Shown piece by piece: positions 681-19,184 of a DNA stretch of 64,000 bases. The notes under the pieces were generated by a model. It was not told where the DNA came from and ran no database searches. It was given only the letters and a program-made list of their open reading frames with translations. Made by a program: the position numbers and the translations under genes. Positions within the stretch are counted from its first letter, which is position 1. Every line of letters begins with the position of its first letter. Source of the stretch: an uncultured Bacteroidales bacterium (GTDB lineage Bacteria; Bacteroidota; Bacteroidia; Bacteroidales; UBA932); contig ONII01000004.1 in assembly GCA_900317845.1 (NCBI GenBank), positions 94,235 to 158,234 of the forward strand. Direction: 5' to 3'.

Positions 681-1865
681 TTACCAGAGGAAGTTGTTGA
701 AAGGATAGCGGCCGGCATGAATTTCCGCAACAATTTTGTAGAGGTCGTTGCGGAGTTTTTCGATGCCAATCTTCTCCCGGGCACTGATGAAGATGCAGGG
801 AGTTTTTTCGCTGGCGATCCAGCTGGTTTTGAGCTCCTCCAGCGTGCGGTTGATGGGCTGCTTGGGCGTGAGCGAGAATTCGTCATAGGGCTCGTAGGTG
901 TAGGCGTCCACCTTGTTGAACACCACGTACACCGGTTTGTTGGCGGCGCCAATGTCCCGAAGGGTCTGTTCCACCACCTGCATCTGCTCCTCGAAGTCCG
1001 GGTGTGAGATATCGACCACGTGCACCAGCACATCGGCCTCGCGGACCTCGTCCAGGGTGCTCTTGAAAGCCTCCACCAGCTGGGTGGGCAGTTTGCGGAT
1101 AAAGCCTACGGTGTCGCTCAGCAGGAACGGCACGTTCTCTATCACCACTTTGCGCACGGTGGTATCCAGCGTAGCAAAGAGCTTGTTCTCCGCAAAGACG
1201 TCGGACTTGGCGAGCAAATTCATCAGGGTGCTCTTTCCCACATTGGTATAGCCCACCAGGGCCAGCCGCACCAGGGAGCCTCTGTTGCCCCTTTGCGTGG
1301 CCATTTGCTTGTCCACCTTTTTGAGGTCCTCCTTGAGTTTGGAGATGCGCTGCTTGACAATACGGCGGTCGATTTCGATCTGGGTTTCACCCATACCGCC
1401 GCGGGTTCCCATACCGCCGCGCTGGCGCTCCAGGTGCGTCCACATGCCTGCCAGGCGCGGAAGCATGTAGTTGTAATGGGCCAGCTCCACCTGCATTTTG
1501 GCGTAGGAGGTTTTGGCCCGCTGGGCAAAGATTTCCAGGATAAGGGACGTCCTGTCGATAACGTCCGAGCAGGCAATCACCTTTTCGATGTTGCGCTGCT
1601 GCATGCCCGTGAGTTCATCGTCAAAGATGACGTACTCAATCTCGTTCTCCTGACAGTATTTCTTGATTTCCTCCAGCTTTCCGGGGCCGATATAGGTGGC
1701 TTTGTCCGGGCGGTCCAGCCGCTGGGTGAACATTTTGTCCGGGAGTGCGCCGGCGGTCTCGGCCAGGAAGGCGAGTTCGTCCAGGTATTCCTGCACTTTG
1801 CGTTCGCCGCCCTTTTCCAGGATGACGCCCACAAATACCGCTTTGTTAGTTTTAAATTCGCTCAT
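681..1865 (-). CDS. hflX: HflX, ribosome-associated GTPase
   Basis: HflX binds GTP and acts on stalled or damaged ribosomes, splitting them in heat or antibiotic stress. The 394-residue protein has the N-terminal HflX domain, a glycine-rich linker (RQRGGMGTRGGMGETQIE near residue 170) and a C-terminal G domain with the P-loop GYTNVGKST, DTVGF and NKVD. An ATG 17 codons upstream is in frame, but the start at 1865 (MSEFKTNKAVFVG) is preferred because a promoter lies between the two. The gene stands alone between repeat-rich noncoding stretches. The family call is secure; the exact role here follows from the family. Confidence 0.95.
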   Translation of the reverse strand: MSEFKTNKAVFVGVILEKGGERKVQEYLDELAFLAETAGALPDKMFTQRLDRPDKATYIGPGKLEEIKKYCQENEIEYVIFDDELTGMQQRNIEKVIACSDVIDRTSLILEIFAQRAKTSYAKMQVELAHYNYMLPRLAGMWTHLERQRGGMGTRGGMGETQIEIDRRIVKQRISKLKEDLKKVDKQMATQRGNRGSLVRLALVGYTNVGKSTLMNLLAKSDVFAENKLFATLDTTVRKVVIENVPFLLSDTVGFIRKLPTQLVEAFKSTLDEVREADVLVHVVDISHPDFEEQMQVVEQTLRDIGAANKPVYVVFNKVDAYTYEPYDEFSLTPKQPINRTLEELKTSWIASEKTPCIFISAREKIGIEKLRNDLYKIVAEIHAGRYPFNNFLW

Positions 1866-1872
1866 ACGAGTG

Positions 1873-1903
1873 CAAAGGTACAAAAAAAGAGATGCCCGGT
1901 CAA
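1873..1903 (-). promoter_or_regulatory. Promoter of hflX, very close to the start codon
   Basis: On the minus strand TTG (1903-1901) is followed after 20 bases by TACCTTTG (1880-1873), which fits the Bacteroidetes sigma-ABfr consensus TTG/TAnnTTTG. The hflX ATG begins 8 bases after the -7 box, so the transcript would be leaderless or nearly so. Confidence 0.8.
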
Positions 1904-1917
1904 GCCTGGTCTCCATG

Positions 1918-2871: not shown

Positions 2872-3226
2872 GTTAAAGCACACCATGTGGCCACAGAGGG
2901 TACTCAGAGGGGGATGGGTGTGCTTTAACGGGGGCTGGGGAGGATGGTTAAAGCACAGGGGAATGGCTCTGAGGACGGTCTGAAGGGGGTGGGTGTGCTT
3001 TAATGGGGTTCAGGGATGGTGGTTAAAGCACAGGGGCATGGCTCTGAGGACGGCCTGGAGGGGGTAGGTGTGCTTTAACGTGAGCCAGGAGGGTGGTTAA
3101 AGCACAACAGGATGCCGCAGAGGGTGCTCTGATGAGGGAGGGTGTGCTTTAATGGGGTTCAGGGATGGTGGTTAAAGCACAGGAGGATGCCCCAGAGACC
3201 ACTCAGAGGGGGTAGGTGTGCTTTAA
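2872..3226 (-). repeat. Array A': five tandem units inverted relative to array A
   Basis: Units start at 2872, 2947, 3022, 3096 and 3171, a period of 74-75 bp. Each again begins GTTAAAGCACA and ends TGTGCTTTAA. Asymmetric interior sequence (GGTGGGTGTGC near the right end, CTCTGAGGACGG in the middle) shows the array is the reverse complement of array A. Confidence 0.9.
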
Positions 3227-3239
3227 TGGGGGCCTGGGA

Positions 3240-3392
3240 GGGGCAAACCTTGCCCCGGCAGGACGAGGCAAGCCGGCAGGACGAGGCAAGCCGAGCATGA
3301 CGGGCAAGTCGGGCATGACGAGGCAAACCGGTCAGGCCGGGCAGGACGGTCAAACCAGCCAAACCAGTCAGGCCAGCCAAGCCAGGCAGGCC
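3240..3392 (+). repeat. Short degenerate GGCAAGCC/GGCATGAC repeats after the synthetase operon
   Basis: This stretch consists of short units such as GCAGGACGAGGCAAGCC, GCATGACGGGCAAG and CAAACCAGCC repeated with changes at about 10-20 bp steps, directly downstream of the last synthetase stop codon (minus strand). The GGGCATGAC core also appears inside the upstream synthetase gene (13177-13222, as GTCATGCCCGG). No gene and no clear terminator hairpin with a T-tract was seen. Confidence 0.65.
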
Positions 3393-3398
3393 AGGAGG

Positions 3399-6300
3399 TT
3401 ATCCGAAATACTGCAGGGTTCGGAGCATTTCAAAAATCATATCCACATAGGCGGAGGAGGTGTGGTCCCAGGTGAAGCCCAGGCGGTAGAGCACCTGCAT
3501 GGTGAAGTGCACGGATGGCTGGTTGATCACTGTCTCCTGCTCGGTGGGGGACTGGGCATAGGCCACCAGGCTGCTCAGGAGCTGGGCCTTGTCCGGCTGG
3601 GCCATCAGGGCCTGCACCTGCGCCATAAATTCCGGGAATTCCACGTAATCCATCCTGTTGCCGTCTATCTTCTGCAGCCGGGACACGATGTCTTCCATGG
3701 GCAGCAGGTGGTTGTTGGACACATTGAAGACGCAGTTTTCCCGCGGCGTTGTGGCCAGGAGCATCATCGCGTGGGCGCTGTCGTCCACCGGCGAGAATTC
3801 CATCTTGGCATCCAGCAGGGAGTACGGGCAGGCCCCCAGCAGTTTGTAGGCCCTCAGGCGACCCATGGTCGAGTTGGCATTGAAGTTTACCTGGAACTCG
3901 CCGTCCGCAGAGCGGGGCGACAGGTTGCCGGCGCGAAGGATCTTGGCGTTGAGGGCTCCGGCGGCCATCCGCCCCAGAATGAACCGTTCCGCCATAAACT
4001 TGGAATGGACGTACTGGTTGGAGGTTTGCTGGCCAAAGTACAGCTGCTGTTCCGTGAGCTGTTTGGGACGACTGCCCGGGCTGGTACCGGACACGCTCTC
4101 CGTGGAGACGTGCACCAGACGGGCGGCCGTGGCCTCGCAGAAGGCGCAGAGGTTCTTGGCCCCGCCGTAGTTAATATCCTCAATATCAGTTCCCTTTGAG
4201 AAGTGCTTCACATTGGCGGCGCAGTTCACCACTACGCTCCAGGGAATGCCGGAAGCCTTGAGGGAATCGAACACGGCCGGCTGGGTGATGTCCCCGTTCA
4301 CTACGCGGATGCGCCTCCCAACAAGCGGCCGGTAATCTTTCTCAAAGTAGTACACCAGCATCTCTTTCAGGCGGCGCTCCGCCGAGAGGGTTCCCTTGGG
4401 CCGGAGGAGGCACCAGATGACAGTTTCTTCCGGCGTGTTTTCCACCAGCTCCCGCAGCATGTGGATGCCCAGGAAGCCGGTGGCGCCTGTAAGCAGAATC
4501 TGCCCCTCCAAGCTTTGCTGCCGCCCGTTCAGGAAGGCCTCCAGCGTATTGCCGGCCAGCAGCTTGTCGATAGCGGTATAGTCGTACTGGCTAATCTCGC
4601 TGTCTTCCTTGGGAGCAGCCGGGACTCCCCCACCCAGGAAGGCGCCCAGCTCGCGGGCGGTAGGATGGGCGAAGACATCGGCATAGGCAAACTTGAGACC
4701 GCGTTTTTCTGCGCATACCATCACGTTGGTCACCATGAGCGAAGAACCGCCCAGGTCGAAGAAATTGTCCGTTGCACCCACCTTTTCCATGCCCAGGACC
4801 TCGGCGAAAATCTCGCACAGGTCCTTTTCCAGGTCCGTGGCGGGGGCCACATATTCCCCTCCGGCGTCGGGCGTGGGTTTGGGCAGGGCCTTGCGGTCCA
4901 CCTTCTGGTTCACGTTGAGCGGAATCCGGTCCAGCTGGACAAAGGAGGCCGGCACCATGTACGGCGGCTTGCGCTCCTGGATGAAGGCCTTGGCGGCCGG
5001 GATGTCAAAAGTGCCGTCAGAGACCACATACGCGGCGATAAACTTGCCGCCGGAAGGGTTGTCGAAGGCCTGCACCGTGATGTCCTTCACGCCCGGGCAT
5101 TCCCGCAGCACTTCCTCCACTTCCTTCAGCTCGATGCGGAAGCCGCGAATCTTCACCTGACCGTCCTGACGGCCCACAAATTCGATGTTGCCGTCGGTTC
5201 TCCAGCGCACAATGTCGCCGCTCCGGTAGGCCCGCATGCCTTTGTGGAAAGGATTGTCGATAAAGACCTCCGCCGTCTTTTCAGGCCGATTAAGATACCC
5301 CCTGCCCACGCAAGGGTTTCCGGCAATGAGCAGTTCTCCGGCGGCGCCCACCGGCACGCGACGGAAGTCGCCGTCCATCACATACATGCTGGTGTTGTCC
5401 AGGGCGTGGCCGATAGGAATGTTGGCCTCGCGCTTCTTCACGTCGAAGATGGTGGAGAAGATGGTGCACTCGGTGGGGCCGTAGCCGTTGTGGAAGCCAT
5501 AGGAAGGCGGATCCATGGAAACCAGCTTTTCGCCGCCCACGGAGAGGTGCTTGAGGGACTTGTTGTCCGGGAAGTTCTTGGCGTACATCACACCCACCTG
5601 CGTGGTCATGAAGCTGTGGGTGATGCCGTTATCCGTGATAAAGGCATCCAGCTGGCTCATGTCGTGGCGGGTTTCCTCCGGGATAATGTGCAGGCATCCG
5701 CCGGCGGTGAGCACGGGATACATGTCCATCATGCACGCGTCGAAGCCGTAGCTGGCATAGGCCGCCACCCGGCTGTGGTCCGTAAGCTTATAGTATTTCT
5801 GGTACCAGGCGCAGAAATTCACCAGGTTGTGGTGCTCCAGCATCACGCCCTTGGGTACGCCCGTGGAGCCGGAAGTGTACAGCAGGATAAAGAGGTTTTC
5901 CGGCCCGGGACCCGCAGGAACGGGGCCTTCTGGCAGGGACTCCAGCTCGTCGGTAGTGAGCACGGGTCCCGTGTACTCATTGAGCAGCGGCAGGAACTCT
6001 TGATCGGCAATGAGCAGTTTGGCCGATGCGTCCTTCACCATAAAATTGAGGCGCTCCTGCGGGTAGGAGGGATCCAGCGGCTGATAGGCGCAGCCGGCCT
6101 TGAGAATGCCCAGGGAAGCCAGCGCCATCCACTGGTTGCGGCCGATAAGTACGGATACCACGTCTTCCGTCTTCAGGCCCCTTGCGGCAATGGCGGCGGC
6201 GATGCGGTCCGTGAGGGCGTTGGCCTGCGCATACGTGCAGGTATAGTCCTGATAGCAAACAGCGGGCGCATCGGGCGTCTTTTGCGCCTGCCTGCGGAAG

Positions 6301-9300
6301 AGACTGACGATGGTTTGGCTCTCGTCCACCTTCAGGCTATAATGGTTGAAGCTTTCCAGCTCTTTGAGGCGCTCTCCGTCCACGAAGGGCACCTCGCAAA
6401 GTTTTTCGTGCGCCAGCAGGCCCCGGACCACGCATTCCATGGCATCGGCAAAGGCCTCCATAATGGCTTTGCTGTATTTGCTGTTGTCGTAGCCCAGTAC
6501 GATGGCCTCCTTGCCCTCGGTGCCGTCGATGTAGATGCTCAGCGGGAACTTGGGCGCCCCGGCGTCCATATTTTCTCCCGTCACCGGCTTCCCGTTGATG
6601 CGGTAATCGGCCAGCACGCCCACCTGGTAGGCCAGCATCACCTGCGGCTGGAAGCCGAACTCCGCCGCTACCTTGGCAAAAGGATACTCCTGGTGCTGCA
6701 AGGTGGCCTGGAAGTCTTCGTCGCACTGTTTGAGGAAGGCTTCGGTGCTTTCCGTGGAGCAGTCTCCGGCAAGGGCCAGGGTGTTCACGAACATACCAAA
6801 GCTGTCGGCTGTTTTGAGGTTGCCGCGGCCATTGCTGATGGTGCAGATATACACCTTCTTGCTGGCATTGTAGGCACTCAGGGTGAGGTAGGCGGCGCCC
6901 AGGTAGAAGCAGGCGGGCGAGATGCCCATTTTTTTGCAGAGCGGATGGATGTTGGCCTGAACCAGCTTTTGGAGGAAGACCTCGCGACCGGGCTGGTCGC
7001 TGTGCTCCAGGTCCGGAATGATGGTGGAAGGGCTCTCCAGGCCGTCCAGCTGCCGGGCAAAGAAGTCCCGGGCCCGGGCATAGGCCTCGCTGCCCTCCGC
7101 GGCTTTCTGCCAGGCGGCGTACTGGAAGTAGGTATAGGCCTCGGGGACTATCTCTTTTCCTTCCAGCGCGGAGCAGACTTCCTGGATAAAGAGGTCATAG
7201 CTGCGGCCGTCAAACACCAGGTGGTGGAAGTCGCTCAACAGGTATGTCTTGTCTTTTCCGGGCACAATCACCACCTTCCCCAGCGGACCTTTGCCAAGGT
7301 CGAAGGGAAGGATGAAGCTCTCTTTCAAGGCTTCCAGTTCTCCCTCCTGGATGGAGACGGGGATGGGAATGTCGGTGGGGACCTGGCACACCTGTCCGTC
7401 TATCCGGTTAAAGCAGGACTGCAGGGCGGGATGGGCCGCCAGAACCTTCCGGACGGCCTCCTGCAGGGCCTGGGCCGATACATCCCCGGGGAAAGTCCAC
7501 AGCATGGGAATGTTGTAGATGGTTTCCTGCGGGGCTTTCATGCAGTCCAGGAACACGCCGGCCTGCTGGTTGGTGAGGAGCTGGGGGTGGAGAGATTCTT
7601 CGCTTCGCTCAGAATGACAGGAAGCATCCCCGGCCATCCAGCTTTTAAGAATCTCGTTCTCAATGCTTTGCAGGGTGGCCGTTTTGGCAAAGCTGTTCAT
7701 GTCGGCCTGAATGCCGTAGCGCTTGAACAGTTCGGTGGCCAGGCGCAGGCCGCTCAGGGAGCTGAGGCCGTAGAGCATGAGGGGTTCCGTGAGAGAGGCC
7801 CCTTCTATTCCGGTGGTTTCCTTGAGGAGGGCCACCAGTTCTTCTTCCAGGAGGTTGAGTGGCGCGGCCCCCTGGCCCTGGGCCTTTTTCGCCTGCGGCT
7901 TGGGCAGGGCCTTTACGTCCACCTTCTGGTTCACATTGAGCGGAATGGCTTCTATCTGCAGGGTGACGGATGGCACCATGTAGGGCGGCTTGCGCTCCAG
8001 GATAAAGGCATTGAGGGCGGTGGTGTCTATCTCCCGGTCGCTCACCACGTACGCGGCCAGGAACTTGCCGCCGCCTTCCTGGTCAAAGGCCTGTACGGTG
8101 ACGTCCTTGATGTCCGGGAATTCGCGGATGACGGCTTCCACCTCCTTGAGTTCTATGCGGAAGCCGCGGATTTTCACCTGGGCGTCTTTTCGGCCGATAT
8201 ATTCGATGTCTCCGTCGGGGCGGTAGCGCACAATGTCTCCGGTGCGGTACAGGCGCTTGTAGGCAGGATCTTGCTCATACGGGTTGCATGCAAAGGACTC
8301 TGCGGTTTTGTCCGGACGGCCCAGATAACCGTCTCCCACCTGCTCACCGGCCTCCAGCAGTTCTCCGGCGGCTCCCACGGGCACGCGCTTTCCGGCCTTA
8401 TTCACTACATAACAGTGGATGCCGGGCATGGGAATGCCAATGGGGATGTTCTCTTCCTGCTTTTGCACCTCCTTGGAAACCACATAACAGAGACTCTCGG
8501 AGGGGCCGTAGCAGTTGAACAGCTTGTAGCTGGGCAGCGGCAGGGCGCTCAGCTTTTCGCCGCCGGTGTACAGCACCTGCAGGCCCTTGCAACTGGGGTA
8601 GTTGATGGCAAACTGGGTGGCCACCTGGGTGGTCATGAAGCTGTGGGTAATGCCGTTCTCCTCAAAATATTGGTGCAGTGCCTGGAGGTCCAGCCGGATT
8701 TCCTCGGGAATGAGGTACAGGGTGGCCCCGGCCGCCAGCGCACCATACAGGTCTCCCACAAAGGCATCGAAGCCAAAACTGGAGTAGGCCGTGAGTTTGC
8801 TTTGGGCCGATATGTCCGTGCGCCAGGCATGGCGCTGGGCGAAGAGGCTTACGTTGCGGTGATTCAGCATACAGCCCTTGGGCGTACCGGTGGTGCCGCT
8901 GGTGTACAGGAGCACAAAGAGGTCCTCCGGCTTGGGGAGGGAAACAGGCTTGCCATCCGGCAGGGAAGGAATGTCCTTCGTTGCAAGCACCGGACCCTGG
9001 AAGCCCTCCACCAGTTCTGCCAGGCCTTCATCGGCAATGAGGAGGGCACTGGAGGCGTCTTGTACCATGAACCGGAGGCGCTCCTTGGGATAGGACGGGT
9101 CCAGCGGCTGGTAGGCGCAGCCGGCTTTGATTACGCCCAGCGGGGCAATGACAGTGTATTCGCTCCGGCCCAGGATAATGGACACCACATGGCCGGGCTT
9201 GACGGTTTTTTCAATGTAGACGGCCAGTTTGTCCGACAGAAGATCTACTTCCTTGTAGGTCAGTTTCTTATCCTTGCATACAAGGGCCAGTTGCTCCGGC

Positions 9301-10643
9301 GCTTCTTGTACCCTTTCCCGCCAGAAATCCACCACGGTTTTCCCGGGATTTCCCACGGAGGCATCCGGATTGAAGCTGTCCAGCAGCTTGATCTGTTCCG
9401 GTGTGGCAAAGTCCAGCTGCCCTACGGTGTCGGCCTGCCTGAGCGACAGCACCGCGGCGGCCATACTCTGGGCAAAGTTCCGCAGGATGCCCTCCGTGAA
9501 CATGCTGGGCCGATACCAGAAGCGCATCATGTAAGGGCGGTCGGTGGGCGTAAAGAGCTCCACGGCGAGGTTCAGGCCCGGCGGATTGGTGCGGAGGTCT
9601 TCTCCCAGGACACGTTCTCCCGCGAGAACCAGCGAAGGGACTTCTACCACAAACTGGCCCTGGAATCCAAAGTTGATGCCCGGGCCCAGGCCCAGGTAGG
9701 TGCCGCAGTCGGCCATGGAAAAGAACGGACGGGCCCTCAGGCCCATGGTCTGCGCCTTCATGTGGTCCAGCACCTCGCTCACCGGCGTATCCGGGGTGGC
9801 GTTCACAAAGGTGGGCAGGGTGTGCACGCACATGGTGAAGGCGGTTCTTGCCGCCACGCCCTTGCGGCCGTTCCAGATGGTGGAGAAGCTGGCGGCGTTG
9901 TCGGCATTCCAGGAGGCCAGCGTGAGGCCGAAGAGGGCGGTGAAAAGGATGCTGTCCGCATAACGGTAGCGCTCCAGGACCTCGTGCATGGCGGCGCTGT
10001 CCAGCGGCAGTTCCACCAGCAGCGACTTATAGGCCGACGGCTTGGCGCCAAAGACATCCGGCACAATCCGGCTTTCGGTCTCCGTGGCCGGGCCGAACTC
10101 CTGCGCGAACCACTGCTTGGCCTCCTCGAAGGCCTCGCTTTCCCGCTGCGCCTGCTCTTGACGGGCAATATCGGCCCCGCTTATCTTCTCTGCCGGGACC
10201 TCCAGGCCCTCGTAGGCGGCCTGCAAATCCTGCAGCATGATCGGGATACAGGCACCGTCTGCAATGATGTGGTGAAAGTCCCCGTAGAAGTAGGCGGCAT
10301 TCGGCGTTTTGTAGAGCTCCAGGCGGAAGAGGCGGTCTTTGTGCAGGTCCATGGGCCGCGCAAAGGTCCCCCTTACCTGGTCGATGCTGTCTATTTCCTG
10401 AATCTCTGCCGTCCACGTTTCCTCAAGCTGTTCCATACACGGGACCCCGTCCACTTCCTTCACGCGGGAAAGGATGTAGGGATGGGCGGCCACAAAGGCC
10501 TCCAGGGCCTTTTTAAATTGTTGGAGGTCGATGGAAGGAGGCAACTTGAACAGCAGGGCCTGCTGGTAGTTGCCGGAATGGGCGTCCAGTCCCTGGCTGG
10601 AGAGGAACATGCTCAGTTGCGCTTGGGAAAGTGGAGAGGTCAT
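3399..10643 (-). CDS. Nonribosomal peptide synthetase, C-A-T-C-A-T-reductase
   Basis: A 2414-residue two-module synthetase with an extra N-terminal condensation domain. Approximate order: C1 (HHIIADG at 123), A1 (YTSGTTGTPKG at 578), T1 (GLSSL at 956), the inserted CHSERSEES (1007), C2 (HHLVFDG at 1140), A2 (YTSGSTGVPKG at 1588), T2 (DLGGSSL at 1960) and a thioester-reductase domain (TGATGFLG at 2047, later YVHSK) that should release the peptide as an aldehyde or alcohol with NAD(P)H. My reading of the A-domain pockets is DAGFYGCCYK and DAMFSGGIFK; the leading Asp and final Lys fit alpha-amino acids, but I cannot name them. C1 has no upstream carrier in this protein, so it may attach an acyl cap. 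Six bases separate it from the preceding synthetase. No phosphopantetheinyl transferase or exporter is nearby. Confidence 0.93.
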   Translation of the reverse strand: MTSPLSQAQLSMFLSSQGLDAHSGNYQQALLFKLPPSIDLQQFKKALEAFVAAHPYILSRVKEVDGVPCMEQLEETWTAEIQEIDSIDQVRGTFARPMDLHKDRLFRLELYKTPNAAYFYGDFHHIIADGACIPIMLQDLQAAYEGLEVPAEKISGADIARQEQAQRESEAFEEAKQWFAQEFGPATETESRIVPDVFGAKPSAYKSLLVELPLDSAAMHEVLERYRYADSILFTALFGLTLASWNADNAASFSTIWNGRKGVAARTAFTMCVHTLPTFVNATPDTPVSEVLDHMKAQTMGLRARPFFSMADCGTYLGLGPGINFGFQGQFVVEVPSLVLAGERVLGEDLRTNPPGLNLAVELFTPTDRPYMMRFWYRPSMFTEGILRNFAQSMAAAVLSLRQADTVGQLDFATPEQIKLLDSFNPDASVGNPGKTVVDFWRERVQEAPEQLALVCKDKKLTYKEVDLLSDKLAVYIEKTVKPGHVVSIILGRSEYTVIAPLGVIKAGCAYQPLDPSYPKERLRFMVQDASSALLIADEGLAELVEGFQGPVLATKDIPSLPDGKPVSLPKPEDLFVLLYTSGTTGTPKGCMLNHRNVSLFAQRHAWRTDISAQSKLTAYSSFGFDAFVGDLYGALAAGATLYLIPEEIRLDLQALHQYFEENGITHSFMTTQVATQFAINYPSCKGLQVLYTGGEKLSALPLPSYKLFNCYGPSESLCYVVSKEVQKQEENIPIGIPMPGIHCYVVNKAGKRVPVGAAGELLEAGEQVGDGYLGRPDKTAESFACNPYEQDPAYKRLYRTGDIVRYRPDGDIEYIGRKDAQVKIRGFRIELKEVEAVIREFPDIKDVTVQAFDQEGGGKFLAAYVVSDREIDTTALNAFILERKPPYMVPSVTLQIEAIPLNVNQKVDVKALPKPQAKKAQGQGAAPLNLLEEELVALLKETTGIEGASLTEPLMLYGLSSLSGLRLATELFKRYGIQADMNSFAKTATLQSIENEILKSWMAGDASCHSERSEESLHPQLLTNQQAGVFLDCMKAPQETIYNIPMLWTFPGDVSAQALQEAVRKVLAAHPALQSCFNRIDGQVCQVPTDIPIPVSIQEGELEALKESFILPFDLGKGPLGKVVIVPGKDKTYLLSDFHHLVFDGRSYDLFIQEVCSALEGKEIVPEAYTYFQYAAWQKAAEGSEAYARARDFFARQLDGLESPSTIIPDLEHSDQPGREVFLQKLVQANIHPLCKKMGISPACFYLGAAYLTLSAYNASKKVYICTISNGRGNLKTADSFGMFVNTLALAGDCSTESTEAFLKQCDEDFQATLQHQEYPFAKVAAEFGFQPQVMLAYQVGVLADYRINGKPVTGENMDAGAPKFPLSIYIDGTEGKEAIVLGYDNSKYSKAIMEAFADAMECVVRGLLAHEKLCEVPFVDGERLKELESFNHYSLKVDESQTIVSLFRRQAQKTPDAPAVCYQDYTCTYAQANALTDRIAAAIAARGLKTEDVVSVLIGRNQWMALASLGILKAGCAYQPLDPSYPQERLNFMVKDASAKLLIADQEFLPLLNEYTGPVLTTDELESLPEGPVPAGPGPENLFILLYTSGSTGVPKGVMLEHHNLVNFCAWYQKYYKLTDHSRVAAYASYGFDACMMDMYPVLTAGGCLHIIPEETRHDMSQLDAFITDNGITHSFMTTQVGVMYAKNFPDNKSLKHLSVGGEKLVSMDPPSYGFHNGYGPTECTIFSTIFDVKKREANIPIGHALDNTSMYVMDGDFRRVPVGAAGELLIAGNPCVGRGYLNRPEKTAEVFIDNPFHKGMRAYRSGDIVRWRTDGNIEFVGRQDGQVKIRGFRIELKEVEEVLRECPGVKDITVQAFDNPSGGKFIAAYVVSDGTFDIPAAKAFIQERKPPYMVPASFVQLDRIPLNVNQKVDRKALPKPTPDAGGEYVAPATDLEKDLCEIFAEVLGMEKVGATDNFFDLGGSSLMVTNVMVCAEKRGLKFAYADVFAHPTARELGAFLGGGVPAAPKEDSEISQYDYTAIDKLLAGNTLEAFLNGRQQSLEGQILLTGATGFLGIHMLRELVENTPEETVIWCLLRPKGTLSAERRLKEMLVYYFEKDYRPLVGRRIRVVNGDITQPAVFDSLKASGIPWSVVVNCAANVKHFSKGTDIEDINYGGAKNLCAFCEATAARLVHVSTESVSGTSPGSRPKQLTEQQLYFGQQTSNQYVHSKFMAERFILGRMAAGALNAKILRAGNLSPRSADGEFQVNFNANSTMGRLRAYKLLGACPYSLLDAKMEFSPVDDSAHAMMLLATTPRENCVFNVSNNHLLPMEDIVSRLQKIDGNRMDYVEFPEFMAQVQALMAQPDKAQLLSSLVAYAQSPTEQETVINQPSVHFTMQVLYRLGFTWDHTSSAYVDMIFEMLRTLQYFG
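7594..7620 (-). repeat. CHSERSEES palindromic repeat, in frame in the distal synthetase
   Basis: The minus strand reads TGTCATTCTGAGCG then AAGCGAAGAATC, translated as CHSERSEES, in the linker between T1 and C2. It matches the dispersed repeat at 14905-14930 and 19605-19632. It falls between domains, where nine extra residues should be tolerated. Confidence 0.85.
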
Positions 10644-10649
10644 GGCGGA

Positions 10650-13600
10650 TTATCCAAAATATTGCAGGGTTCGGAGCATCTCGAAGATAAGGTCCAGGTA
10701 GTCGCTGGAGGTGTGGTCCCAGCGGAAGCCCAGGCGGTGCAGCACTTGCATGGTGTAGGCGGTGGAAGGAACGGTTTCTACGCCTTCCGCTTCTGCGGCG
10801 GACTGCTGGTAGGCTACCAGCGGCGCCATGATGCGCGTCTTGGCAGGGTCTGCGTTGGCTTTTTCCACACGGCGGCCGAATTCGTCGTTCTCCACGTATT
10901 CCAGCGGTTTGCCGTCAATCTTCTCCAGACGCACCAGAATATCGTCCATGGGGATGAGGTGGTTGTTGGACACGTTGAAGACGCAGTTCTCCAGCGGCGT
11001 GCGGGAGAGCAGGACCATGGCGCGGGCCGACTGGTCGATGGGCGAGAACTCCATCTGTCCTTCCAGTAGCTGGAACGGGCAGGCGCCCAGCATCTTGAAG
11101 GCCTTGAGACGTCCCATGGAGGCGTTGGCGTTCAGGTTCACCTGGAACTCGCCGTCCTCCGCGCGGGGCGACAGGTTGCCGGCGCGCATGATTTTGGCCT
11201 TGAGCGTTCCTGCAACCATGTGCTCCAGGATATAGCGCTCTGCCAGGAACTTGGAGTGGACATACTGGTTGTCCGTGAGCTGACCGAAGAAGAGCATCTG
11301 CTCCGTGAGGGTTCCGGGAACATAGCCCGGGGTAAGGCCGCCCACGCTCTCGGTGGAGACATGTACCAGGTAGGCGCCATTGCGCTCGCAAAGGGCCACC
11401 AGGTTCTTGACGCCGCCGTAGTTAATGTCCTCAATGTCCGTTCCTTTGGAGAAGTGCTTCACATTGGCGGCGCAGTTGAACACCGTGTCTATCTGCGTAA
11501 GCGGCTCCAGCGTCTGGGGCTGGGTAATGTCTCCCGCGACGGGCCGGATGCGCGTTCCCAGGAGCTTGCGGTAGTCTTTCTCGAAGTAATACACCAGCAT
11601 TTCGCGCAGGCGGCGCTCCGGGGAAACGCTGCCCTTGGGCCTGAGCAGGCACCAGATGGTGGTGTCCGGCCCGGTGCTCTCGATGAGTTCCTTGAGCATG
11701 TGGATGCCCAGGAAGCCCGTGGCGCCGGTGAGCAGGATATTGCGTCCCAGGTGGAGGTGTTCCCCGCCCAGGAAGGATTCCAGCGTGTTTTTGGAGAGCA
11801 GGGCGTCGATGGCGGAGTAGTCGTAGTCCGTAATGTTGCTGTCCTGCTCCTGTACCGCTACCTCGCCTGTGAGGAAGGCCGCAAGGGAGCGGGCCGACGG
11901 GTGCGAGAACACGTCCGAATAGGCAAAGTGCAGGCCTTGTTTCTCGGCGCTCACCATCACGTTGGTGACCATGAGCGAGGAACCTCCCAGGTCGAAGAAG
12001 GAGTCCGTGGCGCCCACGCGCTCCATGCCCAAGATATCGGCAAAGATGGCGCAAAGGGCTTTTTCCGTTTCGCCGACGGGGGCGACGTACTCGTCCATGG
12101 AGGTGGGAACGAGCTCCGGCAGGGCCTTGCGGTCTACCTTCTGGTTCACGTTGAGCGGAATCTTGTCCAGCTGCATCCAGGCGGCGGGTACCATGTAGGA
12201 CGGCTTGCGCTCGCGGATGAAGTCGCCGGCGGCTTTGGGGTCGAAGGTGCCTTCCGCCACCACATACGCAGCCAGGAACTTGCCGCCGGACGGGGCGTCC
12301 AGCGCCTGCACCGTGACGTCTTTCACGCCCGGGAACTCCTGCAGCACGCCTTCCACTTCCTTGAGCTCGATGCGGAAGCCGCGGATCTTGACCTGACGGT
12401 CCTTTCTGCCCACAAATTCAATATTGCCGTCGGCCCGGTACCGTACAATATCGCCGGAGTGGTACATGCGCGTACCCGGCTGGAACGGACTGTCCACAAA
12501 GCATTCGGCCGTCTTTTCCGGGTTGTTGAGGTAGCCGCGGCCCACACCGGCGCCGCTGATGAGCAGCTCACCGGCGGCCCCCACGGGCAGGCGACGCAGG
12601 TGACGGTCGGCCACGTACAGCGGCATGTTGCTCAGCGGATGGCCGATAGGAATGTTTTCCTCCCGCTCCTCCACCTTGAAGATGGTGGTGAAGATGGTGC
12701 ATTCCGTGGGGCCGTACCCATTGTAGAAATTGTAGGACGGCGGCGGCATGGAGATGAGTTTTTCACCGCCCACGGAGAGGTGCCTGAGGACCGGATTGTC
12801 CGGGTAGTTCTTGGCATACATCACACCTACCTGGGTGGTCATGAAGCTGTGGGTTACGCCATTGTCGATGAGGAAGCGGTTCAGGGCGCCCAGGTCGTGA
12901 CGGACATCCTCTGGGATGATGCAGATGCAGGCTCCGCAGGAGAGGGCGGGATACTGGTCCATCATGTTGGCGTCGAAGCCGTAGCTGGCGAAGGCCGCCA
13001 CTTTGTCTCCGGGCTGGAGCTTGTAGTAGTCCTGGTACCAGGCGCAGAAGTTCACCAGGTTGCGGTGTTCCAGCATAACGCCCTTGGGCGTGCCGGTGGA
13101 ACCGGAAGTGTACAGCAGGATGTACAGGTTCTCCGGCTTGGGATTGCCGATCGGGGTCGGCAATGACGCCCCGCCCGTCATGCCCGGCAACGACGAATTG
13201 TCCGTCATGCCCGGCAGCGACCGGGCATCTTCCAGCTCCGCCGTGGTGAGCACGGGCCCGGTGTAGTCCCCTACCAGCGGGATGAGTTCTTTGTCGGCAA
13301 TGAGGAGCTTGGCGCCGGAGTCCTGAATCATGAAGTTGAGGCGCTCCGTGGGGTAGGACGGATCCAGCGGCTGGTAGGCGCAGCCTGCTTTCATGGCAGC
13401 CAGGGAGGCCTTGGTCATCCAGGCGTTGCGGTTAATCAGGACCGAAACCACATCTTCTTCCCCGAGACCGTACGACAGGATTTTGGCCGCCAGGGCATCC
13501 GTATAGGCGTCCAGTTCCTTATAGCTGATGGTTTTTCCGTCGAAGAGCACGGCCGGAGCATCCGGGGTGGCCTGGGCCTGTTTGCGGAACAGGTCCACGA

Positions 13601-16600
13601 TGGTGAGGCTCAGGTCCACTTCCTGGGTGTAGTTGTTAAAGCTGTCCAGCTGCTTGAGGCGTTCCCCGTCCACAAACGGAATCTCCGTGAGCGGAACGTT
13701 CTTCAGCAGACCCCGCACCACGCACTCCATGGCGTCTGCAAAGGACTGGATGAGCGGCTCCGAGTACAGGCTGCTGTCGTAGGCCAGGGCCAGTTCCGGG
13801 GCCTCCTCCGTTCCTTCGATGAAGATGCTCAGCGGGAACTTGGGGGTGTCCTGCGTAATGAGCTCGTCCTCAAGCGGTTTGCCGTTGATGGTGTACTTTT
13901 CCACGAGCCCTACTTGGTAGGCCAGCATAACCGCCGGGTGGAAGTCGTAGGCCGATGCCACGCGGGCGAAGGGATAGTTCTGGTAAGAGAGCGTGGTGGC
14001 AAAGTTGCGGTCCGTCTCCTTGAGGAAGTCATCGGCCTTCCGGTCCCCTACCTCTCCGGAAAGGGCCATGGTGTTCACGAACATGCCGTAGGTGTCGGCG
14101 CAGCGCATGTCACTGCGGCCGTTGGCCACCGTGCACATGTAAATTTTTTGCTGCCCGCAGAACGCGCCTATCGTGACGTAGGCGGCACCCAGGAAGTAGC
14201 TGGCCGGGGAGATGCCCAGTTCATGGCAGCGGGCCATGACATCGGCCCCAATCTTTTTGCGGAGCCAGATTTCGTGGCCAATCTCGTCTTCCAGGGGCGT
14301 TTTGTCCGGTATAACGCCGGTTTCGTCCTCCTTGCCGGCGATTTGCGCGGCAAAGAAGGCTTCTGCCTCCTGGAATGCTGCGCTGTCCTGGTAGGCTTTT
14401 TGGTCTCGGGCGTAGCTAAAGTAGGTATAGTCCTCTTTTTCAGGTGCTTTGCCTTCCAGGGCGGCGGTGAGCTGGCCCAGGAAAAGGTCGTAGGAGTGGC
14501 CGTCAAAGATGAGGTGGTGGAAGTCGCCCATCAGGCGCAGCTTGCCGGGCGTTTGCACCAGGGTGAGCCTGTAGAGCGGACCGGAAAGGTCGAAGGGCTG
14601 CATGAAGGCCTCTTTGAGAGCCTCGTATTCTTCTTCGCTGCCCAGCTTGACGGAAGGGATTTCTTCCTCTGCCCGGGCGGGCACCAGGTACACTTTTCCG
14701 TCCCGCTGCTCAATGCGGGCGGTAAGGGCTGGATGGGCCTCCAGTACGTCCAGAAGGGCTTTTTTGACCTCCCCTGCCAGCGTTCCTTCCGGGAAGGTGA
14801 GGATGAACGGCAGGTTGTAAGCGGTGGACGAAGGGTTCCTGACGCAGTCCAGGTATAGGCCGGTTTGCTGGAAGGTGAGCTCCTGGGGCTGGTCTTCCCC
14901 ATTAGATTCTTCGCTGCGCTCAGAATGACAGGAATCTCCCGACAGAAGGATGTCCAGGATATCGTTCTCTATGCTTTGCAGGCTGGCGGTTTTGGCAAAG
15001 CTGTTCATGTCCGGCTCCAGGCCGAAGCGCTTGTACAGTTCCGTAGCCAGGCGCAGGGCACCCAGGGACGACAGGCCACTGTAATACAGCGGGTCTGTGA
15101 GGCCGAAGCCGCCAATGCCCACGCTCTCCTTGATGATGTCGCTGATTTGCTGTTCCAGCTTGTTGAGCGGCGCCACGTGGGCCTCCGCCTTGTGCTCCTG
15201 CGGTTCCGGCTTGGGAAGGGCCTTCACGTCCACTTTCTGGTTCACATTCAGCGGAATGGCTTCTATCTGCATGGTAACGGCCGGCACCATGTACGGCGGT
15301 TTTTTGCTGGCAATAAAGGCGTCCAGCTCCTGGATGTTTATCTCCTTGGGGCTGACGATGTACGCTGCCAGGAACTTGCCGGCACCGGCGCCGGGCTCGT
15401 CAAAGGCCTGCACCGTAACGTCTTTAATGTCAGGGAATTCGCGGATGATGGCCTCTACTTCCTTGAGCTCGATGCGGAAGCCGCGGATTTTCACCTGGCC
15501 GTCTTTTCGGCCCATGAATTCAATTTTGCCGTCTTCCCGCTCGCGGACAATGTCTCCGGTGCGGTAGGCCGTGGCGTACTTGGGGTCATCGTCAAAGGGA
15601 TTCTTCACAAAGACCTCTGCGGTTTTGTCCGGCCGGTTGAGGTAGCCCAGGCCCACCTGTTTTCCGGTGATCCAGAGTTCTCCCGGCTCGCCTTTGGGCA
15701 CCTGCTTGCCGTCCTTGACCACATAGACCTTAATATCTTTGAGGGGAAGGCCGATGGGGATGTTCTCTTCCTGTTTTTTCACTTCTTCGCAGAGCACGTA
15801 GCAGATGGTTTCCGTGGGGCCGTAGCAGTTGAACAGGCGGTAGTGCGGCAGCGGGAAGCTGGACATTTTTTCGCCGCCGGTGTACAGAATTTTGAGGCCC
15901 TTGCAGTCCGGATAGTTGATGGCGAACTGGGTGGCCACCTGGGTGGTCATGAAGCAGCAGGTGATGCCGTTTTGCTCAAAATACTCGTGCAGGGCGGGCA
16001 GGTTGAGCCGGATGCGATCCGGAATAATGTAGAGGGTGGCACCGCTGATGATAGCGCTGTACAGGTCCGCCACAAAGGCGTCGAAGCCAAAGCTGGCGTA
16101 GGCTGTCATGCGGGTGGTATGGTCCATGCCCATGAGCTCGCTGTGGTGGCTGCAAAAGGCGTAAATGTTCCTGTGGCAGAGCATGCAGCCCTTGGGCGTG
16201 CCGGTGGTGCCGCTGGTGTACAGCAGGATGAACAGGTCCTCCGGTTTGGGCGGCTGTGCCTTGGGCGTGCCGGGATGCAGTTTGCGGATGTCGGCGGTTT
16301 TCAGGACGGGGCCCTTGTACTCCTTCAGGATGGGAAGGAGGTCTTCGTCGGCCACCAGCATTTTTGCGCCGGCGTCTTTCATCATGAATTCCAGGCGCTC
16401 CGGCGGGTACGAAGGGTCCAGCGGGAGGTAGGCGCAACCGGCTTTGAGCGCGCCCAGCGGGGCCAGCATCATGTACTCGTTGCGGCCCAGCATAATGCCC
16501 ACAACGCTTCCTGCGGGCACTTGGGTTTCTATATAAGCGGCGAGGTTGTCTGTCAGTTTTTCTACCTCTGCGTAGGTCAAACGGATGTTTTCATAGACCA

Positions 16601-16679
16601 CGGCAGTTTGGTTGGAATGGGCTTTCACCTGTTGGTGAAAAGCTTCCAGAACAGTGTTGCAAGAACTTTGGCTCATCAC
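10650..16679 (-). CDS. Nonribosomal peptide synthetase, A-T-C-A-T-reductase
   Basis: A 2009-residue two-module synthetase that begins directly with an adenylation domain, as initiation modules do. Approximate order: A1 (YTSGTTGTPKG near 160), T1 (GLSSL near 535), CHSERSEES (about 583), C (HHLIFDG at 720), A2 (YTSGSTGTPKG near 1190), T2 (DLGGSSL near 1563) and a thioester-reductase domain (TGATGFLG at 1646, YVHSK further on). Pocket readings are DAAFYGCCYK and DAMFSGGIFK, nearly those of the downstream paralogue. A free-amine dipeptide aldehyde is the expected product; such aldehydes can cyclise and oxidise to pyrazinones, as known for gut-bacterial synthetases with this domain order. About 20 residues carrying the PGMT repeat are inserted just before the A3 motif of A2. 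First gene of the operon, divergent from a SpoIIE-type phosphatase. Confidence 0.94.
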   Translation of the reverse strand: MMSQSSCNTVLEAFHQQVKAHSNQTAVVYENIRLTYAEVEKLTDNLAAYIETQVPAGSVVGIMLGRNEYMMLAPLGALKAGCAYLPLDPSYPPERLEFMMKDAGAKMLVADEDLLPILKEYKGPVLKTADIRKLHPGTPKAQPPKPEDLFILLYTSGTTGTPKGCMLCHRNIYAFCSHHSELMGMDHTTRMTAYASFGFDAFVADLYSAIISGATLYIIPDRIRLNLPALHEYFEQNGITCCFMTTQVATQFAINYPDCKGLKILYTGGEKMSSFPLPHYRLFNCYGPTETICYVLCEEVKKQEENIPIGLPLKDIKVYVVKDGKQVPKGEPGELWITGKQVGLGYLNRPDKTAEVFVKNPFDDDPKYATAYRTGDIVREREDGKIEFMGRKDGQVKIRGFRIELKEVEAIIREFPDIKDVTVQAFDEPGAGAGKFLAAYIVSPKEINIQELDAFIASKKPPYMVPAVTMQIEAIPLNVNQKVDVKALPKPEPQEHKAEAHVAPLNKLEQQISDIIKESVGIGGFGLTDPLYYSGLSSLGALRLATELYKRFGLEPDMNSFAKTASLQSIENDILDILLSGDSCHSERSEESNGEDQPQELTFQQTGLYLDCVRNPSSTAYNLPFILTFPEGTLAGEVKKALLDVLEAHPALTARIEQRDGKVYLVPARAEEEIPSVKLGSEEEYEALKEAFMQPFDLSGPLYRLTLVQTPGKLRLMGDFHHLIFDGHSYDLFLGQLTAALEGKAPEKEDYTYFSYARDQKAYQDSAAFQEAEAFFAAQIAGKEDETGVIPDKTPLEDEIGHEIWLRKKIGADVMARCHELGISPASYFLGAAYVTIGAFCGQQKIYMCTVANGRSDMRCADTYGMFVNTMALSGEVGDRKADDFLKETDRNFATTLSYQNYPFARVASAYDFHPAVMLAYQVGLVEKYTINGKPLEDELITQDTPKFPLSIFIEGTEEAPELALAYDSSLYSEPLIQSFADAMECVVRGLLKNVPLTEIPFVDGERLKQLDSFNNYTQEVDLSLTIVDLFRKQAQATPDAPAVLFDGKTISYKELDAYTDALAAKILSYGLGEEDVVSVLINRNAWMTKASLAAMKAGCAYQPLDPSYPTERLNFMIQDSGAKLLIADKELIPLVGDYTGPVLTTAELEDARSLPGMTDNSSLPGMTGGASLPTPIGNPKPENLYILLYTSGSTGTPKGVMLEHRNLVNFCAWYQDYYKLQPGDKVAAFASYGFDANMMDQYPALSCGACICIIPEDVRHDLGALNRFLIDNGVTHSFMTTQVGVMYAKNYPDNPVLRHLSVGGEKLISMPPPSYNFYNGYGPTECTIFTTIFKVEEREENIPIGHPLSNMPLYVADRHLRRLPVGAAGELLISGAGVGRGYLNNPEKTAECFVDSPFQPGTRMYHSGDIVRYRADGNIEFVGRKDRQVKIRGFRIELKEVEGVLQEFPGVKDVTVQALDAPSGGKFLAAYVVAEGTFDPKAAGDFIRERKPSYMVPAAWMQLDKIPLNVNQKVDRKALPELVPTSMDEYVAPVGETEKALCAIFADILGMERVGATDSFFDLGGSSLMVTNVMVSAEKQGLHFAYSDVFSHPSARSLAAFLTGEVAVQEQDSNITDYDYSAIDALLSKNTLESFLGGEHLHLGRNILLTGATGFLGIHMLKELIESTGPDTTIWCLLRPKGSVSPERRLREMLVYYFEKDYRKLLGTRIRPVAGDITQPQTLEPLTQIDTVFNCAANVKHFSKGTDIEDINYGGVKNLVALCERNGAYLVHVSTESVGGLTPGYVPGTLTEQMLFFGQLTDNQYVHSKFLAERYILEHMVAGTLKAKIMRAGNLSPRAEDGEFQVNLNANASMGRLKAFKMLGACPFQLLEGQMEFSPIDQSARAMVLLSRTPLENCVFNVSNNHLIPMDDILVRLEKIDGKPLEYVENDEFGRRVEKANADPAKTRIMAPLVAYQQSAAEAEGVETVPSTAYTMQVLHRLGFRWDHTSSDYLDLIFEMLRTLQYFG
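13150..13230 (-). repeat. In-frame PGMT repeat insert in the second adenylation domain
   Basis: GTCATGCCCGGCA occurs at 13177 and 13204, giving SLPGMT twice in the protein. The paralogous synthetase lacks about 20 residues here. The insert falls just before the A3 phosphate-binding motif. Confidence 0.75.
14905..14930 (-). repeat. CHSERSEES palindromic repeat, in frame in the proximal synthetase
   Basis: Same nine-residue translation and same position (T1 to C linker) as in the paralogue at 7594-7620, differing by one base in the core. The shared position suggests insertion before the synthetase genes duplicated. Confidence 0.85.
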
Positions 16680-16760: not shown

Positions 16761-16779
16761 CAGTTTGATAGAAAAAGGC

Positions 16780-18885
16780 ATGAAAAAACTGGATTCCGCT
16801 TGGATAACCCGCGTGGGAATTGTGGTCTTCGCCGCTGTGCTGGTGGAGGTCATTTCCGTGGTGCAGTACCAGCGGCTCCGTGGTATGATGGCGGAGGAGA
16901 TGAACCTTAGGAGCAAGGTGGTCCTGGGCTCCATGGTCCACGATATCGAGCATATGCTGGAACTCACGGAGGTTACCCTGGCAGAGAACAAGTGGGACAT
17001 CATGCGGCACCTGAACAATCCGGATTCCCTTTTCCCGGTTATGGTGCGTCTGATCGACGACAATCCCAACGTGGTGGGCGGCTGCCTGGCCTTCATGCCT
17101 TATTACTATCCTTCCCTCGGCCGCCTTTTTGAGCCCTATGCCCACAAATTGCCGGATGGCAGTATTGTGACCGAACAACTAGGTACGCCGGAGCACGATT
17201 ATAGCCAAAATCCGGAATTCCTCTGGTCCCTGGATCACCTGGGGCCCTCCTGGACAGACCCTTATCTCTACGGGACGGACTCCCTTTCCTATGCCACCTA
17301 TTCTGTGCCCATCTACAATAATGAGGGCCGGTTGGCGGCCCTGTGCGGTCTGGACATCGACCTTTCTTGGCTGGGAGATACACTCAATGCCCATCAGCCC
17401 TACGAGAATTCTTTTGGCCTGTTACTCACTGTAGAGGGCGATCTGGTGGCCGGGCCTTCAGTGGCGCGCATTCCCCGGGAGGAGGTTTTCCGGGTAGTGG
17501 AAATTGTAAATGGGCGGGTGCCCGAGACCGATTTTCCGGGTCTTGCCATCCGGAAAACGCAACTGGAAAAGGAGCCTTTCTGGCAACTCATCCAGGTGTA
17601 CCAGACGAACGAAGTCTTTGGGCCGATGCAAAAGATGCGGCACCAGCACATCCTCTTTATGCTGCTGGGTCTGGCTGTCCTCGCTTTCATGATCAACCGC
17701 TACGCGCGGAACGAGAACAAACTCAGGGTGGCATCGGCCGAGCAGGCGCGAATAGGCGGAGAACTGGCGGTTGCACGGGATATTCAGCAGCAAATGCTCC
17801 CCAAGGTGTTTCCTTCCTATGTATATGGCACGCTGGAACCGGCGCTGGAAGTGGGCGGAGACCTGTACGACTTCTACATCCGGGACGGCAAGCTGTTCTT
17901 CTGTATTGGCGATGTAAGCGGCAAGGGGGTACCGTCGGCCATGCTCATGTCCATGATTCATTCGCTGTTCCGCGTGGTGTCCCGGAAGGAGGAGAGCCCT
18001 TCGCAGATTCTGGGGGCCCTGAACAACCAGCTTTGCGCCGGCGACGACAACAATATGTTTGTGACGTGCTTTGTGGGTTGCCTGGACTTGTATACGGGTA
18101 AGCTCAATTATGCGAATGCCGGTCATGATAAACCCTTTCTTCTTACTTCATCGGCCTCTTTGCTGCCGGTCAAGGCGAATCTTCCCCTAGGCGTTTTCCC
18201 GGATACGCAGTTCGAACTTCAGTCCATGCTGCTTTCTCCTGGCAGCACGCTTTTCCTTTATACCGATGGTCTTACGGAGGCTAAGAACAAGTTTCGCCAG
18301 GCCCTGGGTCGTGAAAGGGTTCAGCAAGTGTTGGATTATTCTATGAGCATTGGCGCAGATACTCCTGAGGAGCTTGTGGGTGCGTTGAGTGCAGAGGCTC
18401 GTACTTTTGCCGAAGATTGTCCCCAGAGCGACGACCTCACTCTCCTTTGTATCCGGTTCCAGCCGGGCCATACCCTTTCCGAGAACATCACGCTTGGAAA
18501 CAATAAGGAAGAGGTGGCGGCCCTGAGCGATTTTGTAAAGCATTTCCTGGGGCAAATCGAGATGGAGCGCCGGGTTTCCGCAGGGCTTCGTCTGGCGCTG
18601 GAGGAGGTCGTGGTGAACGTGATGAATTACGCCTATCCTCCCGGCGAGCACGGGGAGGTAACAGTGTATGCAGACAGCAATTATAAAGAGGTCCGGTTCA
18701 CGGTTGTGGACTCCGGCTTCCCCTTCGACCCCACGGCTGTTTTGTCGGTAGATACCACCCTGGATGCCCAGAACCGCCCTATTGGAGGCCTGGGAATCCA
18801 CCTTACCCGTAAAATGGTAGACTCCGTTTCCTACTCCCGTAAACACGGATTCAATGTATTAACTTTAACCAAATCCATATCATGA
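16780..18885 (+). CDS. Membrane sensor with SpoIIE phosphatase and anti-sigma kinase domains
   Basis: A 701-residue partner-switching regulator. Order: transmembrane segment (about 9-27), a periplasmic Cache-like sensor (about 30-285), second transmembrane segment (about 290-308), coiled linker, PP2C/SpoIIE phosphatase with metal motifs GGDLYDFY, IGDVSGKG, NAGHDKP and DDLTLL (about 340-560), and a C-terminal RsbW-type ATPase with EEVVVNVMNYAYP, DSGFPFDP and GGLGIHLTRKMV. In this family the phosphatase dephosphorylates a STAS antagonist and the ATPase domain phosphorylates it or binds a sigma factor. The start at 16780 is preferred over an in-frame TTG five codons upstream. The stop overlaps the STAS gene (ATGA). 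Divergent from the synthetases with a 100-bp shared control region. The signal sensed is unknown. Confidence 0.9.
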   Translation: MKKLDSAWITRVGIVVFAAVLVEVISVVQYQRLRGMMAEEMNLRSKVVLGSMVHDIEHMLELTEVTLAENKWDIMRHLNNPDSLFPVMVRLIDDNPNVVGGCLAFMPYYYPSLGRLFEPYAHKLPDGSIVTEQLGTPEHDYSQNPEFLWSLDHLGPSWTDPYLYGTDSLSYATYSVPIYNNEGRLAALCGLDIDLSWLGDTLNAHQPYENSFGLLLTVEGDLVAGPSVARIPREEVFRVVEIVNGRVPETDFPGLAIRKTQLEKEPFWQLIQVYQTNEVFGPMQKMRHQHILFMLLGLAVLAFMINRYARNENKLRVASAEQARIGGELAVARDIQQQMLPKVFPSYVYGTLEPALEVGGDLYDFYIRDGKLFFCIGDVSGKGVPSAMLMSMIHSLFRVVSRKEESPSQILGALNNQLCAGDDNNMFVTCFVGCLDLYTGKLNYANAGHDKPFLLTSSASLLPVKANLPLGVFPDTQFELQSMLLSPGSTLFLYTDGLTEAKNKFRQALGRERVQQVLDYSMSIGADTPEELVGALSAEARTFAEDCPQSDDLTLLCIRFQPGHTLSENITLGNNKEEVAALSDFVKHFLGQIEMERRVSAGLRLALEEVVVNVMNYAYPPGEHGEVTVYADSNYKEVRFTVVDSGFPFDPTAVLSVDTTLDAQNRPIGGLGIHLTRKMVDSVSYSRKHGFNVLTLTKSIS

Positions 18886-19184
18886 CAACAAAAGTAGAAG
18901 AACAGGACGGCAAGTTTGTCGTTACTTTTAATGGCGAGCTGGATACTGCTGCCGCAGCAGAGACGGAAGAGGCCTTGGCGCCTGTGATGGAGAGCCTGGG
19001 CAAGGATATTATTTTTGACTGCACAGACCTGGAGTATATTGCTTCCAGCGGGCTTCGTCTGCTGCTGGGAGTCCTTAAGAAAGCACAGGCTGCCGGCTCC
19101 CATGTGGTCCTGAAAAACGTGAACGACGTGGTTAAGGATGTGCTGGACTTAACCGGTTTTGTAGCCCTTTTCGATATAGAGTAA
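18882..19184 (+). CDS. STAS-domain anti-sigma factor antagonist
   Basis: A 100-residue single STAS domain (SpoIIAA/RsbV type). The phosphorylatable serine lies in DLEYIASSGLRLLLG near residue 56, the family signature. It overlaps the phosphatase/kinase gene by four bases, so it is almost surely the substrate switched by that protein. No sigma factor gene is in the window, so the final target is unknown. The stop abuts the ybeY start directly. Confidence 0.93.
   Translation: MTTKVEEQDGKFVVTFNGELDTAAAAETEEALAPVMESLGKDIIFDCTDLEYIASSGLRLLLGVLKKAQAAGSHVVLKNVNDVVKDVLDLTGFVALFDIE

Follow-up and report, generated by a model that had tools for sequence, protein, structure and literature searches.

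Gene clusters for the dipeptide aldehydes and pyrazinones of gut bacteria were reportedly described by Guo et al. 2017, as related in reviews. These aldehydes are inhibitors of host proteases; cyclisation is frequent among them, and an N-acyl tail may make them more stable (PMC8210680). N-acylated dipeptide aldehydes are made by a Clostridium cluster, and ruminopeptin is an N-acylated Leu-Glu aldehyde (PMC8518294). Going by the passages cited, both forms, free and N-acylated, are already known from gut bacteria. The synthetase AusA has the domain order A1-T1-C-A2-T2-R (PMC12153313), where A is an adenylation, T a carrier, C a condensation and R a reductase domain, and a C domain in the first module is a mark of starter domains (PMC1894796). 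The present work concerns two adjacent nonribosomal peptide synthetase genes, NRPS1 and NRPS2, in a stretch of 64,000 nucleotides from an uncultured Bacteroidales bacterium (assembly GCA_900317845.1, contig ONII01000004.1, positions 94,235 to 158,234). This stretch is called the window, and coordinates count from its first letter.

On balance, the two genes probably encode separate dimodular lines, NRPS1 making a free dipeptide aldehyde and NRPS2 an N-acylated one, and they are probably co-transcribed. The reductase of NRPS1 would release the free dipeptide aldehyde X-Y-H, which has a free amine and could cyclise to an imine and then oxidise to a pyrazinone. In NRPS2 the front domain, C1, would first acylate residue one, and the line would release acyl-X'-Y-H. 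This product would be unable to cyclise and would remain an aldehyde. If so, one organism would govern how long a protease inhibitor directed at its host or its neighbours lasts and what it ends up as. New here are the tandem of the two genes, the apparent loss of the front C domain about twice with a regain by recombination, and a neighbourhood of SpoIIE and STAS genes.

Domain order and ancestry

NRPS1 (10650..16679, minus strand, 2009 aa) has the domain order A-T-C-A-T-R, and NRPS2 (3399..10643, minus strand, 2414 aa) has C-A-T-C-A-T-R. This is given by the open reading frames (ORFs) and by Pfam, where both genes match the families Condensation, AMP-binding, PP-binding and NAD_binding_4. 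It confirms a preliminary description of this DNA, which saw two adjacent synthetases with the same order apart from an extra N-terminal C domain on NRPS2. The genes lie head to tail, with 6 nt between stop and start. The 5' end of NRPS1 reads GTG-ATG, and the ATG at 16676 may be the true start. In NRPS1, A1 is at 15165..16679, the elongation domain C2 at 13650..14897, A2 at 12135..13604 and the terminal reductase at 10653..11774, all on the minus strand. The same domains of NRPS2 are at 7884..9368, 6354..7592, 4899..6323 and 3402..4538, also on the minus strand, preceded by C1, a probable starter (N-capping) domain, at 9369..10643.

AusA is the best NCBIfam match of both genes and spans nearly the whole A-T-C-A-T-R part (E about 1e-295 and 1e-286). 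The scores, 984 and 954 bits, miss the cut-off of 2500 bits for the AusA equivalog NF047350. The R domain is of the short-chain-dehydrogenase type, and its motifs are intact: TGATGFLG, S-T and the Y-x-x-S-K residues, which we take to be catalytic, are kept in 15 of 15 aligned R domains. These matches support the placement of both proteins, as predicted, among the reductase-terminated dimodular synthetases of the AusA and gut dipeptide-aldehyde kind. Both genes end in FEMLRTLQYFG, as had been reported earlier, yet the orthologue L042 ends identically and others nearly so. The shared tail is therefore not a sign of a recent copy.

The preliminary description took the pair for one duplicated pathway and proposed domain trees to date the duplication. 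Such trees were made for 66 R, 91 C and 125 A domains, by a quick method with SH-aLRT support only. All domains of NRPS1 fall in the A-T-C-A-T-R clade and all those of NRPS2 in another, for C2, A1, A2 and R alike. Between NRPS1 and NRPS2, 63.2% of 1983 aligned residues are identical (C2 48%, R 67%). NRPS1 is 90% identical to its orthologue in genome G037 and 85% to that in G122, and NRPS2 is 86% identical to its orthologue in G122. The two genes are not each other's nearest relatives, and a recent tandem duplication is rejected. Because each groups with its own orthologues, the split predates the species sampled. On these trees, NRPS1 and NRPS2 are old paralogues that were brought or kept together, in a minority of species, at a locus between mnmG-ybeY-STAS-spoIIE and hflX.

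The front condensation domain

C1, which NRPS2 has and NRPS1 lacks, is intact and under purifying selection. The active-site motif D-x-HHxxxDG is invariant in all 24 aligned C1 domains, and the predicted fold is a complete C fold (predicted local distance difference test, pLDDT, 91.5). The ratio of nonsynonymous to synonymous substitution (dN/dS, Nei-Gojobori, two partners per gene) is 0.13-0.14 for C1 against two orthologues, which does not differ from the 0.10-0.15 of the other NRPS2 domains, and 0.06-0.14 for the domains of NRPS1. The preliminary description named, as a refuting outcome, a first C domain that groups with inactive or cyclisation types; C1 does not resemble a cyclisation domain. 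A heterocyclisation type is not supported, as HHxxxDG is kept whereas that type has DxxxxD.

In the C-domain tree, C1 and C2 form two deep classes. The C1 profile outscores the C2 profile by 43 bits or more on EntF and by 27 bits or more on CDA-C1, both minima, since a C2 score absent among the 60 matches shown was set to 30 bits. It loses by 31-65 bits on most elongation domains, for example LgrA, TycC and DhbF; the types of these solved chains are those we take them to have. C1 thus appears to lean away from the elongation types, with a mixed placement among the subtypes. Some results weigh against a starter role. On RzmA-Cs, a solved starter domain, the C2 profile is ahead by 6 bits, and the C1 profile is preferred by epimerisation and TycB-type domains as well. 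A Foldseek search with C1 finds the C fold and ranks elongation domains first, which is not discriminating.

C1-bearing synthetases also occur with no synthetase upstream, in the NRPS2 orthologues of G122 (within the 219 nt available) and G347 and at other C-A-T-C-A-T-R loci inspected in the genus. Since such solo orthologues exist, C1 would need no upstream carrier. It is quite likely that C1 performs N-capping, with an acyl group of some kind. The earlier proposal of free and N-capped products is kept as the best reading, with an intact C1 in its favour and the mixed profile scores against it.

On the R tree, 28 rows have a full C1, 7 have half and 23 have none, which needs at least three changes. 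With midpoint rooting, which sets the direction of change, and with C1 present in all deep lineages, the simplest reading would be two losses, in the A-T-C-A-T-R clade and in the half-C group, and one regain in L035/L036. The half-C group (loci L048, L049, L050, L051, L075, L077 and L078) has only the C-terminal half of C1, matching from about residue 170 onward and lacking HHxxxDG. No missing half was seen by eye in the roughly 900 nt upstream in five of these seven loci. Within the family the front domain thus comes in natural variants (full, half, absent or regained), on which the effect of capping could be tested directly.

The tandem and its possible products

Of 400 genomes of the genus, 88 gave a match to T2-R of NRPS2, the window genome counted, and loci were inspected from 60 of these 88, the window among them. 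The NRPS1-NRPS2 tandem occurs, with short junction gaps, in at least four of the 88: the window, G224 (L059), G229 (L061, continuing on L060) and G363 (L069), where the NRPS1 part is interrupted in frame. This count is a minimum, and the 28 remaining genomes could hold more broken tandems. G209 and G360 have NRPS2-type pieces at contig ends, where the tandem state is not readable. In G122 both genes are present and unlinked: NRPS1 runs directly into hflX (L054), and NRPS2 is on another contig (L034), whose 219 nt upstream of the gene contain no NRPS1. At the locus in G347, NRPS2 is the sole synthetase, and most inspected genus loci carry one synthetase. Among the named loci, which are the best 80 of 560, L146 and L163 (cut in its first gene) also hold tandems, made up of more distant synthetases; L109 and L113 seem to be the contigs of G224 and G363 once more and not extra tandems.

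The tandem is real and uncommon, and the pathway to which it belongs is of a known kind. In the literature searched (open-licence papers only), no tandem of capped and uncapped aldehyde synthetases was found. The preliminary description called the two-product design unusual, which holds for the arrangement and not for the kinds of product, as both kinds are known already.

Recombination has taken place at this locus. L035 and L036 are recombinants, with C1, A1 and C2 from the NRPS2 clade and A2 and R from the NRPS1 clade, the junction lying close to residue 1400. The window NRPS1 is a mosaic too: residues 101-500 are 91-100% identical to L086 versus 82-95% to L042, and the later part is nearer L042 in each window of 100 residues. 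The domain trees agree, with A1 siding with L086/L088 and the rest with L042.

Read from the alignment, the A1 pockets are DAAFYGCCY in NRPS1 and DAGFYGCCY in NRPS2, and both A2 pockets are DAMFSGGIF. These nine residues reproduce the earlier pocket readings; the mapping is onto what we take to be GrsA positions 235-331, and the tenth residue is presumably lysine. The A2 code is common to 58 of the 66 readable A2 domains of the genus (67 rows, one gapped). It is a family trait, and matching A2 pockets are rejected as a hallmark of the pair. The suggestion that both lines make the same dipeptide is therefore weakened. Residue Y is probably the same for both lines in the window genome, and X and X' seem to be of one class, with their identity not secured.

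It is a serious, if less probable, alternative that the lines are substrate-diverged paralogues which make different dipeptide aldehydes, capping being only part of the difference. Position 239 of A1 is A or S in NRPS1 and G in NRPS2, within the window genome, G229 and G122 alike. In the tandem genome G229 the A2 pockets are also unlike, DAMFSGGIF in NRPS1 versus DCMFTAGIL in NRPS2, so divergence of the partners can extend to the second residue. Around the A2 pocket of the G229 NRPS2, identity drops to 75-85% in a stretch whose flanks have 88-95%, a pattern resembling that after a subdomain swap, and the mosaic NRPS1 of the window points the same way. What speaks against this alternative is that in the window the A2 pockets are identical and the A1 pockets agree at all but one of the nine positions read. 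The one-site difference in A1, and the A2 difference in one of four tandem genomes, also weigh against the reading of paired free and N-acylated aldehydes.

That reading also has to reckon with the nearest genes, among which there is no acyl-CoA ligase or transport gene beside the synthetases. C1 might instead use a donor other than a fatty acid (an aryl or other acid, or an amino acid) or be idle. This is consistent with its mixed subtype, with an identity of only 26-33% to more distant C1 domains, and with the half-C sister group, which keeps only the C-terminal half and so shows that a synthetase can persist without the front domain. The motif, whole fold and selection of C1 in NRPS2 are all intact, and this alternative is unlikely. 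It is equally doubtful that the tandem has no joint function and is a by-product of frequent recombination and gene movement: single synthetases at most loci and the L035/L036 recombinants would fit this, while the tandem in four genomes and a dN/dS of 0.06-0.15 by domain in both genes argue otherwise. The head-to-tail order and the 6-nt gap might also suggest one joint line, in which C1 of NRPS2 receives the NRPS1 dipeptide and the product set free is a tetrapeptide aldehyde. However, NRPS1 terminates in an intact reductase, C-A-T-C-A-T-R synthetases stand alone at other genus loci including those of G122 and G347, and C1 leans away from elongation domains. A joint line is judged very improbable.

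Neighbouring genes and known systems

Divergent from NRPS1 lies a gene for a sensor phosphatase (16765..18885, plus strand) with a Cache/PDC-like sensor, a SpoIIE phosphatase and an RsbW-like ATPase. It is followed by a STAS-domain protein of the anti-anti-sigma type (18882..19184, plus strand), and then by ybeY and mnmG. Across Bacteroidales loci, the synthetases usually adjoin a SpoIIE-type sensor phosphatase and a STAS protein. Counts of neighbours needed at least 3 kb upstream and 1.5 kb downstream, which left 46 of 80 named and 41 of 64 genus loci, two sets that share contigs. An earlier demand for 4 kb on both sides kept 7 of 80 loci, 3 with spoIIE, and was relaxed after that result. SpoIIE or STAS is found within 4 kb in 34 of the 46 named loci (12 are without) and in 35 of the 41 genus loci (6 without); outside the mnmG/ybeY/hflX setting the counts are 29 of 40 and 19 of 25. 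The arrangements vary: divergent beside NRPS1, downstream in line (L048, L092), upstream in line (L146, L077) or opposed (L104). In a genus sample of 200, SpoIIE occurs in 34 of 34 genomes with R-type synthetases versus 103 of 166 others (Fisher p 9e-7, which ignores kinship and assumes that the 400-genome set includes these 200).

A literature search gave no paper, among the matches listed, on SpoIIE together with a nonribosomal peptide synthetase. The regulation of aureusimines and of the gut aldehydes has been left open, and within the literature searched this neighbourhood is the first concrete lead to the regulation of such synthetases in Bacteroidales. A functional link may exist. Tentatively, and with little confidence, the locus could be a protease-inhibitor device with two lifetimes: one promoter would give a short-lived, self-cyclising aldehyde, its pyrazinone maybe a signal, and a lasting capped aldehyde. 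The Cache-SpoIIE-RsbW-like phosphatase and STAS partner switch would sense product or target and set the output, and the genus would toggle the capping domain by recombination between synthetases.

The genome itself (2.41 Mb, 97.75% complete) has four SpoIIE domains. A Condensation search finds three places, all within NRPS1 and NRPS2. Its single match for a phosphopantetheinyl transferase, a 229-aa ORF, is on another contig than the synthetases. Record titles of near named relatives are of uncultured Bacteroidales from rumen, reticulum, omasum and similar samples.

The boundary gene downstream of NRPS2 is that of the GTPase hflX (681..1916, minus strand). In L059, L060, L068 and L079 hflX is inverted behind the synthetase, and therefore inversion has occurred at the locus. 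In L066 (3203-10465, G317) an A-T-C-A-T-R frame runs without a stop through hflX, giving an open frame of 2421 aa, a fusion or an assembly error.

The genes also contain repeats. A dispersed 27-bp repeat, read in frame as CHSERSEES, lies in the T1-C2 linker of NRPS1 (14904..14930, minus strand) and of NRPS2 (7593..7619, minus strand). The genome has 27 copies with at most 2 mismatches, and a reversed control gave none. The repeat is absent from this linker in the nearest orthologues L042, L034 and L059, and similar insertions are present there in L044, L066, L084 and L093. A2 of NRPS1 contains an insertion of another repeated peptide, two copies of SLPGMT (about 13155-13220), and similar DNA lies downstream of NRPS2 (about 3230-3390). 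By eye, palindrome-like GTGCTTTAAC ... GTTAAAGCAC repeat arrays are seen at about 120-450, beyond hflX, and 2880-3210, between hflX and the end of NRPS2.

Among the closest described systems is AusA, the aureusimine / phevalin synthetase of Staphylococcus, also a dimodular A-T-C-A-T-R enzyme whose reductase releases a cyclising dipeptide aldehyde (PMC12153313, PMC8210680). Unlike AusA, the window genes score far below the AusA cut-off, have no adjacent phosphopantetheinyl transferase gene, and have pockets that are not those of a known substrate pair; NRPS2 in addition has its front C domain. Starter C domains of lipopeptide synthetases are, like C1, the first domain of their line and have an intact HHxxxDG, and C domains of first modules are described as starters (PMC1894796); the profile scores of C1 are mixed. 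The ruminopeptin (rup) pathway of Ruminococcus bromii likewise yields an N-acylated dipeptide aldehyde from a gut synthetase (PMC8518294, PMC12327764), in a bacterium of another phylum and with no uncapped twin mentioned in the passages cited. The gut dipeptide-aldehyde / pyrazinone clusters share with the window their reductase-terminated dimodular synthetases and their free and N-acylated aldehydes (PMC8210680, PMC8518294). As far as described in these sources, free and acylated forms come from separate clusters, whereas the window has both architectures in one locus.

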